Part shown: in pieces, positions 5,776 through 25,469 of the stretch
How positions within the stretch are numbered: position 1 is the first letter of the stretch
Layout: the number at the start of each line of letters is the position of its first letter
Virus record (IMG/VR): IMGVR_UViG_3300044295_000189
Span: 1-26,884 of that record
Length of the DNA stretch: 26,884 nt
Reading direction: 5' to 3' (one strand)
DNA from: a virus
Program-made: the position numbers and the translations under genes
Notes under the pieces: model-generated
The model's input: only the letters and a program-made list of their open reading frames with translations
Databases searched by the model: none
Told to the model about the DNA's origin: nothing

Positions 5776-6695
5776 TGTTGTTCCCGTGGGCGGGCGCGCG
5801 TCTCAATAAAGCGCATTGGACCGTTTTTTATCCTCAGCAAAGCTCGACCCTGACGGATGGGTGGGTGGCATATACGGTCCCGCCGGGCGCTGATTTTTTG
5901 TACATGCTTGCTGTTGGCGGCGGTGGCGGCGGCGGGAAGGGCGCAGGCGGCGCCGCGACTGTTGGGAGCGGCGGTGGTGGTAGCGGCGGGTTATCGAAGC
6001 TGATTATCCCCCGCTTTATACTGCCCGATACGTTTTGGGTTCGCCCCGGAAATGGCGGGACGGGTGCAACAACAAGCGCGAATGGGTCCACCGGGACAAG
6101 TTCTAATATTTCGATGCAGGCGAATACGACGACGCCGAACATGATTTTATCAGCGAACGGCGGCGGCGGCGGTGGTGGCGCTGCCACATCGACTGCGGGC
6201 ACGGCTGCGGCAGTTGTCGGTAATGCAACATCGAACATAATGCATCTTGGCATCTTTGCTTTAATCGCTGGGATGGCTGGTGGAGCGGGCGCGACTACTG
6301 CCAACGCGGCGGGGGCGAATATATCGCCCGCCGCGACCAGCACGTTTTGCCTCGGCGGGGCAGGTGGCGGAAACGGGACCGGCGCGGGGGGAAATTCTTC
6401 TGCCTCTGGAATATATCCGCTTGTTTCTGGCGGGGTTGGGACGACCGGCGGGGCCGGAGGCCATGGGTTTCGCGCGGGGTGTCGCATCGATCCAATTGCG
6501 GCGAACAATTTCCCGATGCTGGTTTGCACCGGGGGCTCTGGTGGCGGCGGTCATTCGACGGGGGCCGCCGGCGCCGGCGGCAACGGCGGGTGGGGGTGTG
6601 GCGGCGGCGGCGGGGGAAATACGTCAACAGCCGGCGGGACAGCCGGGAATGGCGGCAATGGGGGTGACGGCTTCGTAATTATCGGGGCCTTTTGA
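5775..6695 (+). CDS. Glycine-rich putative fibre or receptor-binding protein
   Basis: A 306-residue protein. Residues 1-50 form a conventional domain (WTVFYPQQSSTLTDGWVAYT, then VPPGADFLYMLAVGGGGGGG), after which glycine dominates, with repeated runs of four to seven glycines separated by small or polar residues. Similar W-P-G-V-L-V-GGGGGG arrangements occur in phage glycine-rich tail proteins. Poly-glycine-II sandwiches of this type are known from the S16 phage gp38 adhesin, where they display receptor-binding loops. The coupling TGATG at 5775 ties it to the previous gene. Location between portal and protease is unusual for a fibre. Assignment as a virion surface or receptor-binding protein is inference from composition. 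Confidence 0.72.
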   Translation: MLFPWAGARLNKAHWTVFYPQQSSTLTDGWVAYTVPPGADFLYMLAVGGGGGGGKGAGGAATVGSGGGGSGGLSKLIIPRFILPDTFWVRPGNGGTGATTSANGSTGTSSNISMQANTTTPNMILSANGGGGGGGAATSTAGTAAAVVGNATSNIMHLGIFALIAGMAGGAGATTANAAGANISPAATSTFCLGGAGGGNGTGAGGNSSASGIYPLVSGGVGTTGGAGGHGFRAGCRIDPIAANNFPMLVCTGGSGGGGHSTGAAGAGGNGGWGCGGGGGGNTSTAGGTAGNGGNGGDGFVIIGAF

Positions 6696-14822: not shown

Positions 14823-16292
14823 ATGTCCGTTGCAACCTTGCAGTCGACGAACCGGGTCAAGATTTCGAAGGTTCGGGAAACGACGTTCGGCGTCACGCCG
14901 ACGAACCCGGCGTTCAAAACGTTGCGCATGACTGGCTCGGATTTGAACGCGAATCCGAAAACCACGACCTCGAATGAAATCCGCTCGGATCGTCAGCTTG
15001 CCGATCTGATCTTGATCGGGGCGGAGGCCGGCGGCGGAATCGACAAAGAAGTCTCTTTCCAGGCTCTCGACGATGATTTCGAGGAAGCGCTGTTGACGGC
15101 GTGGGTCGCAAAAGCATCGATCGTCGTCGTGACCCTCGACACCGAAATCAGCGACGTATCGACCACGACGCTGACCGTTGCGTCGGGCGGCGCGAGTTTC
15201 AAGACCGGCATGCTAACCTTGATGTCGGGCTTCACGACTTCGGCGAACAACAAGATTGCGCGCGTGAGTTCGAGCACCGCGACGACCGTGGTCTATCCCG
15301 CCTCGACATTCACTGCGGAAGCGGCTGCTATCCCGGTCGGCGCCACGTTGCGCCATGTTGGTTTTCAGGGCGCGTCCGCTGACATCACCGCAACCGCGAG
15401 CGGGCTCGGCTCGACCGCGCTGGACTTCACGACGCTCAATCTCGTGGTCGGAGAATGGGTCAAAATCGGTGGTTCGGCCGCAGGCGATCAGTTCGCGACG
15501 GCGGCAAACAATGGCTGGGCGCGGATTTCGGCCATCGCCGCGACCGCGTTGACCTTTGATGTCCTTCCCACGGGATGGACCACGGACACGGGTACGGGCA
15601 AGACCATCAAGGTCTGGATCGGCGACTATGCGAGAAACGGCACGACTCTGAATTCGAACACGATCGAACGCCAGTACCTCGATCAGTCCCCCGTGAGCTA
15701 CGAGTCTCTGACCGGCATGTGCCTGAACACGCTGGCGTTCGATGTGGCGGCAGAGCAGATTTTCAAGGCGAAGCTGTCGTACATCGGCAAGTCCGGGACG
15801 ACCAGCACGTCCCGCGCGTCTGGTGCGACGGATACGGCGGCGCCGACGAACAACGTGCTCAACGCATCGACGAATGTCGGTCGGATCGCGGTCAATGGCG
15901 TTGCCGTGACTGGCCCGAACTATGTGATGTCGTCCATGGTGACGATCAACAACAACCTGACGGCATTGCAGGCGGTCGGCGCGATGGGCGCCATCGGCGT
16001 TGGCATCGGCGAGTTCAATGTCTCGGGCACGCTCAACACGTATTTCGGCGACACCACGAACTTTTCCTATGTGATGGCGAACACGGCGTTGTCATACGAC
16101 TTCCGCATCGGGGATGCGTCCGGCAACAAGCCGACCTATGTCTTCGATCTCCCGCGCATCAAGTTTTCGTCCGGCGCGCCGTCCGTGCCGGGGAAAAACC
16201 AGCAAGTGATGCTGCCCCTGAACTTTCAGGCGATCTTGCATCCGACGCTCGGCTATACCATGCACATCGGACGGCATTGGTACACCGAATAA
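14823..16292 (+). CDS. Major tail tube protein
   Basis: A 489-residue protein with the Phage_tube_2 signature: VKISKVRETTFGVTPTNPAF, KTLRMTGSDLNANPKTTTSN, EIRSDRQLADLILIGAEAGG near the start, and SYVMANTALSYDFRIGDASG plus LPRIKFSSGAPSVPGKNQQV near the end. It polymerises into the hollow non-contractile tail tube. Between residues 100 and 270 there are two similar inserted beta domains (TTTLTVASGG...IARVSS and TALDFTTLNL...ARISAI), which make the protein longer than simple tube proteins. Such insertions usually decorate the outside of the tail. GAAGGA lies eight bases before the start. Confidence 0.88.
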   Translation: MSVATLQSTNRVKISKVRETTFGVTPTNPAFKTLRMTGSDLNANPKTTTSNEIRSDRQLADLILIGAEAGGGIDKEVSFQALDDDFEEALLTAWVAKASIVVVTLDTEISDVSTTTLTVASGGASFKTGMLTLMSGFTTSANNKIARVSSSTATTVVYPASTFTAEAAAIPVGATLRHVGFQGASADITATASGLGSTALDFTTLNLVVGEWVKIGGSAAGDQFATAANNGWARISAIAATALTFDVLPTGWTTDTGTGKTIKVWIGDYARNGTTLNSNTIERQYLDQSPVSYESLTGMCLNTLAFDVAAEQIFKAKLSYIGKSGTTSTSRASGATDTAAPTNNVLNASTNVGRIAVNGVAVTGPNYVMSSMVTINNNLTALQAVGAMGAIGVGIGEFNVSGTLNTYFGDTTNFSYVMANTALSYDFRIGDASGNKPTYVFDLPRIKFSSGAPSVPGKNQQVMLPLNFQAILHPTLGYTMHIGRHWYTE

Positions 16293-16303: not shown

Positions 16304-16768
16304 ATGGATATCGCAACAATCAGGATCGACGCCGGGAAGTCGGAAGCAGGCGAGTGGGTCGGGGATATCCCCGGCCTGCCAGGCGTGAGGCTGCGAGTGC
16401 GCGGAACGCGAAGCTTCGCCTATCGGCAAGCGATTATCGATCGGCGGAAGGCGCTCCCGCGAATTTCGTTCAATCGGGATGGCAGTTTGCCGGTCGAGAT
16501 CGCGGATCGCGTCGCCGGGGAGGCGATGGCGGACGGGTTGCTACTCGGGTGGGATGGCATCACGAACGGCGGCGAGCCGCTTCCCTATTCGCGCGATACG
16601 GCGCTGATGCTCCTGACCGATCCGGCCTATGAGATTTTCCGCGAGGGCGTGCTTTTCGCGGCGTCGGTCGTGGGGGATGCGGAAGCCGAGTCGAAGGAAA
16701 CAACGCTGGGAAACTCCGAAAGGCCCTCGGATACCGGCTCCGCTGGGCCGAACACGCAGAACCCCTGA
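16304..16768 (+). CDS. Tail assembly chaperone, short form (lambda gpG-like)
   Basis: A 154-residue protein, read in the zero frame from ATG 16304, between the tail tube and tape measure genes. It has a beta start (MDIATIRIDAGKSEAGEWVG), IPGLPGVRLRVRGTRSFAYR, and a helical middle (PVEIADRVAGEAMADGLLLG, then WDGITNGGEPLPYS and REGVLFAASVVGDAE), with an acidic, unstructured end. Position and the frameshift signal mark it as the counterpart of lambda gpG, which coats the tape measure during tail assembly. The frame that would otherwise start at 15575 upstream overlaps the tail tube and is not coding. Sequence similarity alone would not name it; the arrangement does. Confidence 0.85.
   Translation: MDIATIRIDAGKSEAGEWVGDIPGLPGVRLRVRGTRSFAYRQAIIDRRKALPRISFNRDGSLPVEIADRVAGEAMADGLLLGWDGITNGGEPLPYSRDTALMLLTDPAYEIFREGVLFAASVVGDAEAESKETTLGNSERPSDTGSAGPNTQNP
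16694..16749 (+). promoter_or_regulatory. Programmed -1 ribosomal frameshift signal
   Basis: Three parts are visible in order. AAGGA at 16694-16698 resembles a Shine-Dalgarno site nine bases upstream. The heptamer G GGA AAC at 16708-16714 sits in the correct register of the zero frame (CTG GGA AAC) and re-pairs as GGG AAA after a -1 slip. Seven bases later a hairpin can form: GGCCC (16722-16726) with GGGCC (16745-16749), enclosing CGG-ATA-CCG. Lambda G/GT uses the near-identical GGGAAAG. The -1 frame downstream encodes protein-like sequence well before any start codon. Confidence 0.85.
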
Positions 16769-17058
16769 TCCGCAATCTCATGGCGGACGGCCATCCCGTC
16801 CCCGACCACCTTGTCGAACCTCGGTTGACGATCGAGGAAACTGCCTTTCTCGCGGCATGGCAGGAACTCGACACGGATAGGGCGTGGGGCATGAGTGGTC
16901 CTGGCTCGATCCCGTTCGCGTCGATTGATCGCTACGCCGATCGGTACGGCATTCGCGAAATCGACGAATTCGAAATGTTGCGCGACGCCGTTCGCGCAAT
17001 GGACGCGGAATATCTGACGTTTTGCGCCGAAGAGGCGGCGAAACAAAAGCAGTCATAG
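16714..17058 (+). CDS. Tail assembly chaperone, frameshift extension (lambda gpT-like)
   Basis: The -1 frame after the slippery heptamer continues LRKALGYRLRWAEHAEPLIR and then through ATG 16780 (MADGHPVPDHLVEPRL) to IPFASIDRYADRYGIREIDE and a final helix. Joined to 137 residues of the first frame it gives a fusion of about 251 residues, the equivalent of lambda gpGT. The segment before ATG 16780 (tryptophan, charged helix) reads as part of the same helical domain, and no ribosome binding site precedes 16780, so independent initiation there is unlikely. The W-x-E-L-x-T-D-R ... I-P-F-x-x-I-D-x-Y-A pattern resembles DUF1799-type chaperone C-termini. It probably bridges tube subunits and the tape measure. 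Confidence 0.82.
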   Translation, partial: LRKALGYRLRWAEHAEPLIRNLMADGHPVPDHLVEPRLTIEETAFLAAWQELDTDRAWGMSGPGSIPFASIDRYADRYGIREIDEFEMLRDAVRAMDAEYLTFCAEEAAKQKQS

Positions 17059-17066
17059 GCGCGGCC

Positions 17067-20000
17067 ATGGAAGTCACCCAATATAAAAGGGTCCGCGTCT
17101 CCGGCGAGACGACGGGCATGGATGCGGTCGCGGCCAGCTATGACAAGGTGTCGGCCGCGCAGAAAAGGGCGTCCGACACCGGAAACGCTTTGTCCAAGAC
17201 ACAGGACACGCAGGAAAAATCCGTTCTTCGCGTGGCGAAGCAGATGGATTTCTTGGCAAGGTCAATTGACCCGGTTGTGGCGGCGCTGGATAAATTGCAA
17301 CGAATGGAGAGGCTTGTTGATGTTGCGCGCTCGCAAGGGCAGGAAATCAAGGAGTCGTGGGTGCAAGCCCTTGAAAGGGCTCGCCAGCGCTACGAGGCTC
17401 TGAGCAAGGCCGCGAACGACAACGCGAGAGGGCTCGACGCGCACGCGAAGGCAACGGGCCTCAACACGATGCAGATGATGGAGGGCATGCATGTGCTGCG
17501 GTCCTTCACCGATTCCGTCGTCGCAGGGCAAAGCCCGATGCGCGCGCTGGCGATGGAAGGAAGCCGCATAGGCCAGATTTTCGCGTCCGGTCAGGGCGGC
17601 GTGGGCGGCACGTTCTCGGCATTGCGGGACACGCTGGCGGGCATTGTCACCCCGGCGCGCGCTGCGGCCCTTGGCGTGGCCGGGGTGGCGCTTGCCGGGA
17701 TAGCCGCGTGGGATGCGTGGGACGAGAAAATCAAGGGCCTCCAACGGTCCCTTAATGGCATTGGCGGGGCATCCGGGCTCACCGTGTCGGGCGCGCAGCG
17801 TCTCGCGCTTAACGGCGGCAACGGCCTGACGGTCGGCCAATCCTTCGAAAGCCTCGGCGGGTACATCCGCGCCGGGATTGATGGCGGTACGGCGGCGTCT
17901 TTGCTCGGCTCGCAAAAGCAGTTTGGGCGGGCGTTCGGCTTGAGCGCTGGCGATGCTGGCGCTGCGTTGGCGGGCGCTTTCGGCGATCCGTCGAAGGGGC
18001 TTGGCGAACTGCAAAAGTATTTCGGTCAACTCGGATATGAGACCGAATTACAGGTTCGGCGCCTTCAAGCGACGGGGCGGCTTGAAGAGGCCCGCGCGAC
18101 CTTATTCAAGGCGTTCGAAGGTGAGTTGAAGAAGACGACAGATACAACCGGGGCTCTCGCGAAGGCGATGGACCTTGCGGCGGCGGCGGCGTCAAAAACG
18201 TGGGCCTACATTGGCCAGATTGGCGCCGATCGCACGCCTGCCGAGCAACTATCCGCTGCTGGCGATCGTCTCGGACGGGCGTTGGGGACGGCGCGCCGGG
18301 GCAGTTTCCAAGAGGGGTTCCGGCGTGGCGCGGTCGGTGGCTACATCGGTGAGACGAGCATTCAAAGCAATTCCGTGGCGAGCGCGGCCGGCAACTATTT
18401 CGATGCGCTGGCAGGAGTGGGGAAGGAAATCTTCGACGCCGGGCGCGCGAAGGCGGATGAACTCGCAAAGCGCTTTTCGTACCTCAATGCGCAAATTCAG
18501 GCGGTCAATGATGACGCGCGAATTGGCGCTCAGGCTATTATGGCTCGCTCGGTTGCTGAAAAGCTCGCCGCTGAGCAAGAGCGCATTCGGGTCGAGGCCG
18601 CGCGCGATGCGAACAAGGCGCTGACGGCGACGGCGGAAGCCGAAAAGGCCCGCACGCTGGCGCTTGCAGAGAGCCAAAAGGTTCTTCGCGATACCGCGCG
18701 CGAACTGCATGATCAGGGGCGCACGATCGGCGTGACGGACTTTGAGCGCGCTCGCATTGAGAATGACATTTTCCGCCGAAACCTGAATGAAAGGACGCTA
18801 CCGGGAACAACGGCGGCGCCAGCCGCTTCCGGAGCCTTGAATCTCACTGGTTTGCCGTCCGACGTGGCCTCGAACGCGCGAGCGAATTCGGGCGTTGCCG
18901 CGTACATCTGGCAGGCGGCTCTTGCGCGCGGGATTGACCCGAGCATCGCGCTTCGCGTCATCAATCAGGAGAGCAGCTTCAACATAGGCGCGAGCAACCT
19001 GACGAGCCGCGAGCAATCCTACGGGTTGATGCAACTCAACACGATGGGCGGCCTTGGCGCTTCGGCTCTTCGTCAGGGCATCAATGTTCGTGATCCCTCG
19101 ACGTGGCGCCAGCAAGTTGACTTCGGCCTTGATGTCGCAGCGCGGGACGGGTGGCGCCAATGGTACGGCGCCCGCGATGTCGGGATTTCGCGCTGGCAGG
19201 GCATTGGCGGGCCGCGTTCTGGCGGTGGCGCGCCGCAAGCCGGCGAAGCGCCCGGCGGCGGGACTGCGGATCAACTCGCGGGCCGGGATTTCGAGAATCG
19301 GGTGAAGTCCTTGTGGGTTCCGGCGCTCAATGAAGCCGAACGCGCGCTGGATGGCCAAAAGCGCGCGCTCGATATCCAGATTTCATCCTTTGGGCTTTCG
19401 ACTGGTGAGATCGCGAAGAACGCCAAGGCGATCGAACTCGAAAATATGCTTCGCTCGCGCGGCCTCGAAATTTCCGACGCGATGCGTGAGAAAATCAATG
19501 CGCTGGCGACGGCCGAGGGCGAACTGGCTTCCATGCGCGAACGCGCTGACCGCGCGCAGCGCAAGGCGATCGAAACATCCGACCTCATTCGCGGCACATT
19601 TTCGGATTTGATTTCCGGCCCGTTGACCGCGTTGGCGCATGGTCAGAACCCCGGAAAGGCGGCGCGGGATACCCTCGCCCGCTTTGGCGACAACCTCATC
19701 AGTTCTGGTGCGCGCAGCCTCACGGAAGGCATTTTCGGCCCCTTCGGCAAGTCCCTCTTCGGCGCCAAGACGACCACGGCGATGATGAACGTCGATGCCG
19801 CCATGGTGAACATCGGCGGCGCTGGCGGCATTCTCGGCGGCCTCGGCGGCGGGGCTGCGGGGGGAAGCGGCGGCGGCGGGTTGTTCGGGTTTTTTGGCCG
19901 GCTATTTGGCGGCGGCGGCGGGGCGGGCGCGCCGATGCAGCTTCCCGGCGGTCTCCCTCAGTTCGCGGACGGGACGGACTTCGCATCTGGCGGGCCTGCC

Positions 20001-20246
20001 ATCGTCGGCGAGCGCGGCATAGAAATTGTCAACTTGCCGCGCGGCGCGCAGGTCATTCCAAATCATGCCCTTGGCGGATCGACGATTCACATCGGCGGCC
20101 CGACGCTGACGGTGATGGGCAGCGTCAACGATGACAACATGCCGCGAGTCGAAGCGATGATCGCAGCCGCGAGCAAGCGAACAGTCGCGGCGGTCCAGCG
20201 CCAGTTCGGGAAGATGGGCCAAGTCTACAACGCAAGGCACGGCTGA
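17067..20246 (+). CDS. Tape measure protein with lytic transglycosylase domain
   Basis: A 1,059-residue protein, the longest in the window. Residues 1-130 are coiled-coil-rich (SVLRVAKQMDFLARSIDPVV), 180-230 contain a hydrophobic alanine/glycine segment (AAALGVAGVALAGIAAWDAW) typical of tape measures, and 480-590 are again helical. Residues 605-700 resemble a soluble lytic transglycosylase: IDPSIALRVINQESSFN with candidate catalytic Glu635, then SYGLMQLNTMGG. The end has a glycine-rich stretch and the common closing motif FADGTDFASGGPAIVGERG. The protein sets tail length and is ejected into the periplasm, where the enzyme domain would locally open peptidoglycan. ATG 17067 follows the chaperone stop by eight bases; the TTG at 17022 would overlap the chaperone. 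Confidence 0.92.
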   Translation: MEVTQYKRVRVSGETTGMDAVAASYDKVSAAQKRASDTGNALSKTQDTQEKSVLRVAKQMDFLARSIDPVVAALDKLQRMERLVDVARSQGQEIKESWVQALERARQRYEALSKAANDNARGLDAHAKATGLNTMQMMEGMHVLRSFTDSVVAGQSPMRALAMEGSRIGQIFASGQGGVGGTFSALRDTLAGIVTPARAAALGVAGVALAGIAAWDAWDEKIKGLQRSLNGIGGASGLTVSGAQRLALNGGNGLTVGQSFESLGGYIRAGIDGGTAASLLGSQKQFGRAFGLSAGDAGAALAGAFGDPSKGLGELQKYFGQLGYETELQVRRLQATGRLEEARATLFKAFEGELKKTTDTTGALAKAMDLAAAAASKTWAYIGQIGADRTPAEQLSAAGDRLGRALGTARRGSFQEGFRRGAVGGYIGETSIQSNSVASAAGNYFDALAGVGKEIFDAGRAKADELAKRFSYLNAQIQAVNDDARIGAQAIMARSVAEKLAAEQERIRVEAARDANKALTATAEAEKARTLALAESQKVLRDTARELHDQGRTIGVTDFERARIENDIFRRNLNERTLPGTTAAPAASGALNLTGLPSDVASNARANSGVAAYIWQAALARGIDPSIALRVINQESSFNIGASNLTSREQSYGLMQLNTMGGLGASALRQGINVRDPSTWRQQVDFGLDVAARDGWRQWYGARDVGISRWQGIGGPRSGGGAPQAGEAPGGGTADQLAGRDFENRVKSLWVPALNEAERALDGQKRALDIQISSFGLSTGEIAKNAKAIELENMLRSRGLEISDAMREKINALATAEGELASMRERADRAQRKAIETSDLIRGTFSDLISGPLTALAHGQNPGKAARDTLARFGDNLISSGARSLTEGIFGPFGKSLFGAKTTTAMMNVDAAMVNIGGAGGILGGLGGGAAGGSGGGGLFGFFGRLFGGGGGAGAPMQLPGGLPQFADGTDFASGGPAIVGERGIEIVNLPRGAQVIPNHALGGSTIHIGGPTLTVMGSVNDDNMPRVEAMIAAASKRTVAAVQRQFGKMGQVYNARHG

Positions 20247-22177: not shown

Positions 22178-24396
22178 TGCGTCGCCGGGCTTTTTGGGCA
22201 TCTTTTGCCGTGGCCTTGCTCGCCTCGGGCACGGCCAAAGCGGACCCGATTTTTACGCCCATCGTCACAGCTATCCTGACCTCGGTCGGCGTTTCGTCAA
22301 CGGTTGCTATTGCTGGAATTTCCATCAACATCGCAGCCGTTCTTTCCGGTGCCCTGACCCTCGGCTTTGGGCTGCTTCTTTCATCCATCTTTTCGCCAAA
22401 GCCGAGAACGCCGCAGCCTGAATCCGGGATCATCGGCCTGCAACAGCCATTGCCGTTCAGAACCTACGGCTACGGTCGCGCGGCGAATGCCGGCGCGGTC
22501 ATGTTCAAGGAAAATTGCAGCCGGTATCTCGTCTATGTCGCGGCGATCGCCGGGCATCGGATCGATGCCTTCGAAAGCCTTTATCTCAATGATGATGCTG
22601 TGACCGTTCCGGTGTCCGGCGCGCAGCTTGTCGGAACAGTTTCCGCGATGACGGACGGGCGATATTCGGGCGGGATCGTCACGATTGATTCGCGCGTTGG
22701 GCTCTCCACTGAGACCTACTATTCGCTGGTCAATGGTTATGCCTCGACCGCATGGGGGTCAACATTCCGGGGCGATTCGATCGCATCGATTGCCATGGTT
22801 TGCGCGCCGGTCGAAGCGAACGTTTTCAATCAAAGGTATCCCTACAGCGACCCGAAGCCGCGCCCTGTCCTTCGCTGGGCTCGCGTCTATGATTGGCGGG
22901 ACTCGTCTCAATCGCTCAGCGATTCTTCAACGTGGAAATGGAGCCAAAACGCTGCCGTTTGCATCGCGAACTGGATTTGCCATTCAAGCTTCGGCTTTCA
23001 TGAGGACTTCGCCGGTTCGATCTTGCCGGCAATCGAGGATTGGACGCAGGCGGCCAACGACTGCGATGAACTCAAGGCATTGAAGGCGGGCGGAACTGAA
23101 CCCGCGTACCGTATCAATGGGTTCTCGACCACCGAGACTTCGAACGCATCGACGCTCATGACGATGCTGCAATGCTGCGATGGATATCTGGTCAAGATTG
23201 GCGATGTTTACCGACTTTCCGTTGGCAAATATCACACGCCAACGGTCATCATCACGGATGACGATATTTCGGCTGTGACGTTTCAAAACGGAATCGCGTC
23301 GGAAGACCTGATCAATTACGCATCCGCAAAGTGGACATCGCCAGACAACGGCTTCGTCAGCGTGGATACCGACCCAGTCCTGAACACGGATGAGTTTTCA
23401 ACCCGGCCCGGCGCGCCAAGAAAAACGCAACTTGATCTTGGATGGGTTCAATCTCCGGGTCAGGCGTCGCGTCTTTTGCGTCGGGAAATGATCCGTCACA
23501 AAAACCCGTTGCGAGGAAAGCTCACGCTTTTCTGGTCTGGCATGAACGCGGCATTCGAGCGGCGGTTTATCGTCCAGTCCAATTCGATTCCACGCTTGTC
23601 GAATGTGGTCGTTGAAAACATGAAGCCGGTCATTTCGGCTCGGGCAATGCGCGTCGAGATTGAGTTTGTTGGGACCGGGCCTGAGATCGACGACTATAAT
23701 CCGTCAACCGATGAAACAGCGCATCCGAATGTCGCCGCCCGTCCAAGCGCTGCTTCCGCTGCCGTCCCGACCGGGCTCGCGGTCGTTGGCGAACTTGTCA
23801 CCGATGGCGATGGGAATGGATCGGTCGTTGCTGTCCTTTCATGGGATGACCCGGCTGTCGCGGACCCAAAAAATACCGCGTACACGTTTATCGGCCAGTA
23901 CAGATTCCATGATGTAGGCGGTGGAACGCCCGGCGCGTGGGTTTCCCTCGGAAGCCTGAGCGCAACCCTAAGCGCGGGTGTGTACAGCGCTCAAACCGGC
24001 GTGATGCCGAATGCGAATCTGGACTTCGCCATTGCGTCGATAGGCGGTGGAACGTCCGCCTATTGCACGCCCGTAACCGCGTCCATGGAACAGCCGAACG
24101 TCGCGCCTCAAGCGCCAACGTGGGTGTCTGCTGTCGGCGCGGTTGGCCATGCAACTTTGACGGTGACGGCGCCGAACTCGTCGAATTTCTACGCCGTTCA
24201 GTTCTATCGCGCTGTTTCTGGTGGTTCGTTCGCAGGTGCGTCTGCCATTGGCTCGCCGGTAACTAGCGCGAGAAACGCGACGATTTCCTACACAGACACG
24301 CATGGCGCCGGAACGTTCGATTATTTCGCCACGTCGATAACGAGCGCGTCCGTTGGGTCGTCCCCGGCGGGGCCGAGATCGGCCACGATCACATGA
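22177..24396 (+). CDS. Tail-tip attachment / host specificity protein (gpJ-like)
   Basis: A 739-residue protein. The N-terminus is hydrophobic: a signal-like helix (residues 1-23, MRRRAFWASFAVALLASGTA) and a second hydrophobic stretch (42-72, VAIAGISINIAAVLSGALTL). The centre has tail-hub features (LPFRTYGYGRAANAGAVMFK, LRWARVYDWRDSSQS, CIANWICHSSFGF, LMTMLQCCDGYLVKIGDVYR). From about residue 525 two beta-sandwich, fibronectin-III-like domains follow (VVAVLSWDDPAVADPKNTAY; QAPTWVSAVGAVGHATLTVT). This order fits the central tail-tip protein that contacts the receptor and membrane. ATG 22177 is chosen because of the TGATG overlap; ATG 22162 adds five residues. Long hydrophobic N-termini are also seen in other tail-tip proteins and need not be secreted. 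Confidence 0.85.
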   Translation: MRRRAFWASFAVALLASGTAKADPIFTPIVTAILTSVGVSSTVAIAGISINIAAVLSGALTLGFGLLLSSIFSPKPRTPQPESGIIGLQQPLPFRTYGYGRAANAGAVMFKENCSRYLVYVAAIAGHRIDAFESLYLNDDAVTVPVSGAQLVGTVSAMTDGRYSGGIVTIDSRVGLSTETYYSLVNGYASTAWGSTFRGDSIASIAMVCAPVEANVFNQRYPYSDPKPRPVLRWARVYDWRDSSQSLSDSSTWKWSQNAAVCIANWICHSSFGFHEDFAGSILPAIEDWTQAANDCDELKALKAGGTEPAYRINGFSTTETSNASTLMTMLQCCDGYLVKIGDVYRLSVGKYHTPTVIITDDDISAVTFQNGIASEDLINYASAKWTSPDNGFVSVDTDPVLNTDEFSTRPGAPRKTQLDLGWVQSPGQASRLLRREMIRHKNPLRGKLTLFWSGMNAAFERRFIVQSNSIPRLSNVVVENMKPVISARAMRVEIEFVGTGPEIDDYNPSTDETAHPNVAARPSAASAAVPTGLAVVGELVTDGDGNGSVVAVLSWDDPAVADPKNTAYTFIGQYRFHDVGGGTPGAWVSLGSLSATLSAGVYSAQTGVMPNANLDFAIASIGGGTSAYCTPVTASMEQPNVAPQAPTWVSAVGAVGHATLTVTAPNSSNFYAVQFYRAVSGGSFAGASAIGSPVTSARNATISYTDTHGAGTFDYFATSITSASVGSSPAGPRSATIT

Positions 24397-24407
24397 CAGG
24401 AGAGAAT

Positions 24408-25469
24408 ATGAAAATCCGCGTTTTCACAGCCGCAATTTTCTTCGGTCTGTTTTCGATCTGCGCTGCATTCGCGCAGACATTCACGCAATCAACGATCGGT
24501 TCGGATGCCGCGATCATCTATCGCGATTACAACACCGCTGGCGTTCCATCGTCCGGCGTGTTCAACCCGCGAAAGTCGGATATCAGGTCGTGGGGCGCGG
24601 CGATCAGCAGCGCGGTCAATCTGCCGAGGATCACGGCAGCTTTCGATTCGTCCGCAGGCTCGACGCCTCACAATATTTTCGACCTCAACATCAATTCTTT
24701 TCCGGCTGGAAATCAGATTCCGCTCAACACCATGCAGGGCATCGTTTCAAAGATTAAGGTCGACACATCGTCCACGCTCGCGCCGTGGCCGCACACCGCG
24801 ATCAGCGCCTACATGCTGAACGGCCCCAATGTTTCCGGTGGTTCGTCGGTCGGTGTTTTCTCGGCGCTCTCGCAAAACACAAACCTCCTGAACGTTTCGC
24901 AATACGCCTACAACGGCGTGGTGCGGAATCTCAATGGGCTCGACGCCGCGATCGATGGCAACGGATACGATTTCGACACCTTGCTAGGCATGGAGCTTGA
25001 CGTTGATGTCGTCAAAAAATCCGGCAGTGTAACGCCGGTCGGCACGGTAATCGGGCTCAAGATCATCGGCGGATCGACCGTGAAGCCGACGCACGGCGCA
25101 TCAGGCATCCGAATTTTTCCGATGGGTACGGGCCTGCCGTGGGACACCGCCTATGTCGTCGAAGATGCAGCCGCGACGACGGGAATGTTCATCGGCGCGG
25201 CGTCGGCGGCGGCGGCGAACGTAGCTTCCATGCCGCTTTACTGGCGCGGTTATGACGGATCGTCAGCAAGTACGCTTGCCCATATCCAGGTCGGGTCTGA
25301 CGGCAGTTTTCAGATTTTTCCGCCGAGCGGAAAGCCGATCATCATGGAAGGCGAAATTTATCTGAACAACACCGTCAACAACGTGTCGCCGACATCGCCG
25401 AACCGCACCATTACGATGGTGATTGGTGGGACGCCCTACTACATCCACGCGAAGACCACGAACAACTGA
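24408..25469 (+). CDS. Fibre-like protein with Sec signal peptide
   Basis: A 353-residue protein starting MKIRVFTAAIFFGLFSICAA, a textbook Sec signal peptide with likely cleavage after AFA (residue 22). AGGAGA stands five bases before the ATG. The mature part is beta-rich, with repeated alternating strands, VVRNLNGLDAAIDGNGYDFD, and a C-terminal section typical of tail-fibre ends (VGSDGSFQIFPPSGKPIIME, then PNRTITMVIGGTPYYIHAK). It follows the host-specificity gene, the normal place for a tail fibre, yet a signal peptide implies export from the host cell. It may be a fibre, a secreted depolymerase-like protein or a surface-blocking protein; no catalytic motif is apparent. Confidence 0.78.
   Translation: MKIRVFTAAIFFGLFSICAAFAQTFTQSTIGSDAAIIYRDYNTAGVPSSGVFNPRKSDIRSWGAAISSAVNLPRITAAFDSSAGSTPHNIFDLNINSFPAGNQIPLNTMQGIVSKIKVDTSSTLAPWPHTAISAYMLNGPNVSGGSSVGVFSALSQNTNLLNVSQYAYNGVVRNLNGLDAAIDGNGYDFDTLLGMELDVDVVKKSGSVTPVGTVIGLKIIGGSTVKPTHGASGIRIFPMGTGLPWDTAYVVEDAAATTGMFIGAASAAAANVASMPLYWRGYDGSSASTLAHIQVGSDGSFQIFPPSGKPIIMEGEIYLNNTVNNVSPTSPNRTITMVIGGTPYYIHAKTTNN

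Follow-up and report, generated by a model that had tools for sequence, protein, structure and literature searches.

Tail chaperone frameshifts in phages and the locus in the window

Among the closest known counterparts of the arrangement analysed here is the G/GT pair of phage lambda, in which two overlapping chaperone frames lie between the tail tube and tape measure genes and a -1 slip takes place on a heptamer near the end of G, namely G_GGA_AAG. A G/GT frameshift of this kind occurs in most long-tailed phages. GT is the scarcer of the two products, and its T part brings in tail tube subunits. According to the papers that cite Xu, Hendrix and Duda 2004 (PMC3483164, PMC3556154, PMC5009743), this frameshift is conserved across dsDNA phages, and in lambda the product ratio is 30:1 and G binds the tape measure protein (PMC5009743). 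In Burkholderia phage KL1 the heptamer GGGAAAC has been predicted for gp18/gp19, with products of 142 aa and 264 aa and a predicted downstream stem-loop (PMC3483164). In Caulobacter phages the chaperones preceding the tape measure gene have AAAAAAC in phiCbK and GGGAAAC in Colossus (PMC3556154). The PRFect study reports joined frameshifted genes, nearly all of them tail chaperones, in 2476 of 3679 SEA-PHAGES genomes (PMC10885494).

The window, by which we mean the whole stretch of DNA that was analysed, is a 26.9 kb virus contig. Its genes run in the order tail terminator, tail tube, G, T, tape measure, distal tail and tail fibre and, judged from sequence, this is a siphovirus tail module. The features of the locus are as follows.

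14823..16292, + strand: tail tube protein gene, directly 5' of G (PHROG 290 minor tail protein, 1.6e-66; PF18906 Phage_tube_2, 5.6e-40)
16304..16768, + strand: G-like tail assembly chaperone, zero frame, 154 aa (phrog_313, 2.7e-13; phrog_8233, 6.1e-7)
16694..16698, + strand: AAGGA, 9 nt 5' of the heptamer, proposed as an upstream Shine-Dalgarno stimulator (not supported)
16708..16714, + strand: GGGAAAC slippery heptamer, in phase as G GGA AAC, conserved among homologues
16714..17058, + strand: T-like extension, -1 frame, 114 aa (phrog_3817 tail chaperonin, 2.4e-21; PF23812 Phage_TAC_18, 6.5e-12; tblastn matches from residue 1)
16722..16749, + strand: possible stimulatory hairpin, predicted, GGCCC/GGGCC with inner CGGA/TCCG, after a 7 nt spacer
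17067..20246, + strand: tape measure protein gene, directly 3' of T (phrog_24, 9.1e-29; SLT domain)

At 489 aa the product of the tail tube gene is long, with its tube-family match at residues 257-470, and N-terminal to this match residues 103-180 have a weak Melibiase match (4.2e-5, below the Pfam cut-off) and are perhaps an inserted domain. A 358-aa protein encoded 3' of the tail fibre gene (24393-25469) matched nothing in PHROG or Pfam at E 1.

The zero frame runs from the ATG at 16304 to its end at 16768, and the -1 frame, which begins LRKALGYRLRWAEHAEPLIR..., extends from 16714 to the TAG at 17058. Reading the zero frame up to the heptamer and the -1 frame thereafter gives a predicted G-T fusion of 251 aa. 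As in lambda, two overlapping frames, the second in -1 relation, lie between the tail tube and tape measure genes, and the first of them carries a GGGAAA heptamer close to its end; unlike in lambda, the heptamer ends in C, G goes on for 17 codons past the site and the sequences are far diverged. Both frames are homologous to known tail assembly chaperones (phrog_313, phrog_3817, phrog_8233 and PF23812). The family phrog_8233 (271 aa) covers both the G and T halves, and the T half encoded in the window matches it as well. The identity of G to its best relatives among viral contigs was 37-48%. When the T half was used as a direct query against viral contigs no relatives were found, nor did T have a relative in the PDB (best E 0.96); the NCBIfam search gave no useful match and the Rfam search of the window gave none. 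Our main reading, to which we assign a probability of about 95%, is that a lambda-type programmed -1 ribosomal frameshift would yield a 251-aa GT tail-chaperone fusion at this locus.

The slippery heptamer is conserved near the end of G

When read in frame from the ATG at 16304, the heptamer at 16708-16714 is CTG GGA AAC, which is the register that had been claimed for it when the locus was read from sequence alone. Ten in-phase heptamers of the form XXXYYYZ were found in the likely genes of the window, and only for the one at 16708 does the -1 frame pass the stop of its own gene. The chance probability of an in-phase heptamer within the last 25 codons of the window G gene is about 0.014. Two other heptamers, GGGAAAA at 1442-1448 and GGGAAAT at 6389-6395, are in phase inside long genes and have open -1 frames of 96 and 90 codons, respectively, that close before the stop of their own gene; these are probably chance occurrences in a GC-rich genome.

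Homologues were collected from phage records, viral contigs, bacterial genomes and one plasmid, and they include Alphaproteobacteria prophages and phages of Pseudomonas, Rhodobacter, Shewanella, Stenotrophomonas, Bordetella and Caulobacter. After removal of duplicates there were 26 distinct loci with a complete G frame, the window included, and every one of them has an in-phase XXXYYYZ heptamer in the final part of G, with a long -1 frame after it (17 GGGAAAC, 6 AAAAAAC and 3 GGGAAAG). In codon-shuffled G genes an in-phase heptamer fell within the last 25 codons in 1.9% on average, which amounts to 0.5 expected among the 26. The zero-frame stop comes directly after the heptamer in 13 loci, and in the other 13, including the window, G has a short tail. 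Rhizobium phage N28_2 was left out of the count because it has tape-measure similarity only, with no shown homology to G, and its examined ORF is without a heptamer.

KL1 shares with the window the heptamer GGGAAAC and a predicted 3' stem-loop, but it has a stop codon immediately past the heptamer, and an extra gene separates its chaperones from the tape measure gene. The G protein of phiCbK is detectably homologous to that of the window and a programmed frameshift is annotated there, whereas its heptamer is AAAAAAC with the stop codon directly after it. The Rhodobacter phages RcSimone-Hastad (gp78/79) and RcRudolph (gp21/22) have T homologues with 36% and 30% identity, respectively, and the heptamer GGGAAAC, but in both the zero-frame stop is directly past the site.

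Given that the quality of this virus contig is uncertain, the change of frame could in principle be a sequencing error or the mark of a decayed gene. The identical -1 relation, however, is found at the same place in all 26 distinct loci, named complete phage genomes among them, and we have rejected this explanation as next to impossible.

The -1 frame is conserved before any start codon

The -1 frame has its first ATG at 16780, after 66 nt, and no Shine-Dalgarno motif precedes this ATG. The sequence-only reading had held that these 66 bases already encode protein, and both the homology and the third-position bias agree with it. The T homologues can be aligned as proteins from the first codon 3' of the heptamer onward. 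Among eight pairs of closer relatives, the differences within the first 22 codons of the -1 frame fell 17, 16 and 62 at the first, second and third codon positions, that is, 62 of 95 at the third, and of the changed codons in the same pairs 45 were synonymous and 31 were not. Read in the zero frame, these bases no longer show the pattern. The pattern of substitutions indicates that the -1 frame is under purifying selection 5' of any start codon.

These data bear on the explanation that T is made separately from the ATG at 16780 and that a fusion is unnecessary. An ATG is indeed present there, and T homologues are annotated as separate genes in several records, for example those of S0112, LPPA15 and BUCT548. 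Against this, the ATG has no Shine-Dalgarno motif, homology and purifying selection of the -1 frame cover the 22 codons 5' of it, and a separate start would leave the conserved heptamer unexplained. Within the first 40 codons of the T frame, six homologues lack a start codon altogether, and only 2 of the 26 loci, the window not among them, have one that is accompanied by a Shine-Dalgarno motif. Homologues without a slippery site that keep a start with a ribosome binding site had been named beforehand as evidence that would speak against the fusion; instead, the heptamer is present throughout. Since homology and selection precede the first start and starts with a Shine-Dalgarno motif are so rare, separate initiation of T is highly improbable and has been rejected. 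For practical purposes a sequencing error is ruled out as well. The 251-residue fusion with lambda G/GT as its precedent is, on this comparative evidence, strongly supported.

It had also been expected that standard annotation would call two separate genes and miss the fusion. This is true for S0112, LPPA15 and BUCT548 but not for RcSimone-Hastad, RcRudolph, phiCbK and CcrRogue, whose records already hold a joined CDS. In three further loci, DSS3_MAL1 (L010), Azospirillum phage Cd (L036) and the B. elkanii plasmid pUSDA31-2 (L035), T is unannotated despite a heptamer and a -1 frame of 124-151 codons between G and the next gene.

Upstream and downstream elements

The heptamer had been described as the centre of a complete three-part signal like those of E. 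coli dnaX and IS911, with AAGGA nine bases upstream and a GGCCC/GGGCC hairpin seven bases downstream. Both elements lie where they had been placed, so that a Shine-Dalgarno-like motif and a hairpin can be drawn around a slippery heptamer as in those two systems. What sets the window apart from them is that its upstream motif and hairpin are not beyond chance.

For AAGGA in the window, P was 0.90 with synonymous redraws as the null and 0.35 with other in-gene windows, so the motif is no better than the local protein sequence would give and the comparison with the dnaX upstream element was not upheld. When pairing with the 16S tail was scored in 20 loci over 15 bases about 6-20 nt upstream, the mean P against synonymous redraws was 0.54. 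A family-wide Shine-Dalgarno enrichment appeared with a truncated anti-Shine-Dalgarno sequence and an in-gene null, but it was gone with the full sequence and the synonymous null. Because it vanished under the synonymous null, the apparent enrichment most likely stems from the amino acids that make up the acidic linker 5' of the heptamer. Apart from the presence of AAGGA, nothing supports a contribution of an upstream Shine-Dalgarno element.

In the predicted hairpin GGCCC at 16722-16726 pairs with GGGCC at 16745-16749 around the inner CGGA/TCCG stem, and the 40-nt stretch that contains it has a folding energy of -15.6 kcal/mol. Compared with dinucleotide shuffles its z was -0.64 to -0.97, with 33 of 200 shuffles folding as well, and compared with synonymous redraws it was -0.75. 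Alignment of homologues, which had been proposed as a check on heptamer and hairpin alike, bore out the heptamer but showed no covariation of the base pairs, in either hairpin, in 13 sequences aligned without gaps. Three relatives have strong hairpins after a spacer of 5-6 nt (z of -3.2 in L022, -4.1 in L027 and -2.3 in L025). Across 20 loci the mean z was about -0.7 (se 0.20-0.27) in the first two 36-base windows past the heptamer. This points to a modest family preference for structure directly past the heptamer, which is only suggestive because offset 198 in T is equally low.

It is possible that the hairpin contributes to frameshifting. One way in which it might do so, which we regard as quite unlikely, is that in the alphaproteobacterial subgroup concerned here it tunes the frameshift, the 5-7 nt spacing being kept while the pairs shift register from one relative to the next; selection would then act on position and stability and not on conserved pairs. 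That frameshifting is driven by the full set of upstream Shine-Dalgarno motif, heptamer and hairpin is doubtful: the two flanking elements are present, and the three strong hairpins and the family mean z are in its favour, but the upstream motif is not above the synonymous null and the window hairpin is neither significant nor backed by covariation. The part of the proposed signal that stands beyond chance is the heptamer.

Probable products and their roles

A probable course of events under the lambda-type frameshift is that the majority of ribosomes would make G (154 aa) and terminate at 16768, whereas a minority would slip on GGGAAAC, from GGA-AAC to GGG-AAA, and go on reading the -1 frame as far as 17058 to give the 251-aa GT. 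By analogy with lambda, G would coat the tape measure protein, which is encoded immediately downstream, the T part of GT would recruit tail tube subunits, and neither G nor GT would stay in the virion. We infer the slippage, its rate and the chaperone functions from what was observed in the sequences, namely the arrangement, the conserved heptamer and, in the -1 frame, homology and selection ahead of any possible start. The rate of frameshifting in the host is uncertain, as the AAC in G_GGA_AAC is a slippery codon of the mammalian-like rather than the bacterial-like type. This typing of AAC as second slippery codon is taken from a review (PMC5009743).

The locus is a clear but ordinary case of a well-known mechanism, and the understanding of that mechanism is unchanged by positions 16304-17058. 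What it does fix is the annotation of this phage group and of several relatives, which should read as a 154-aa G and a 251-aa GT and not as two unrelated small genes. Finally, the 26 sites provide a benchmark for the conservation of each part of the signal, which is seen for the heptamer and not for the upstream Shine-Dalgarno motif.
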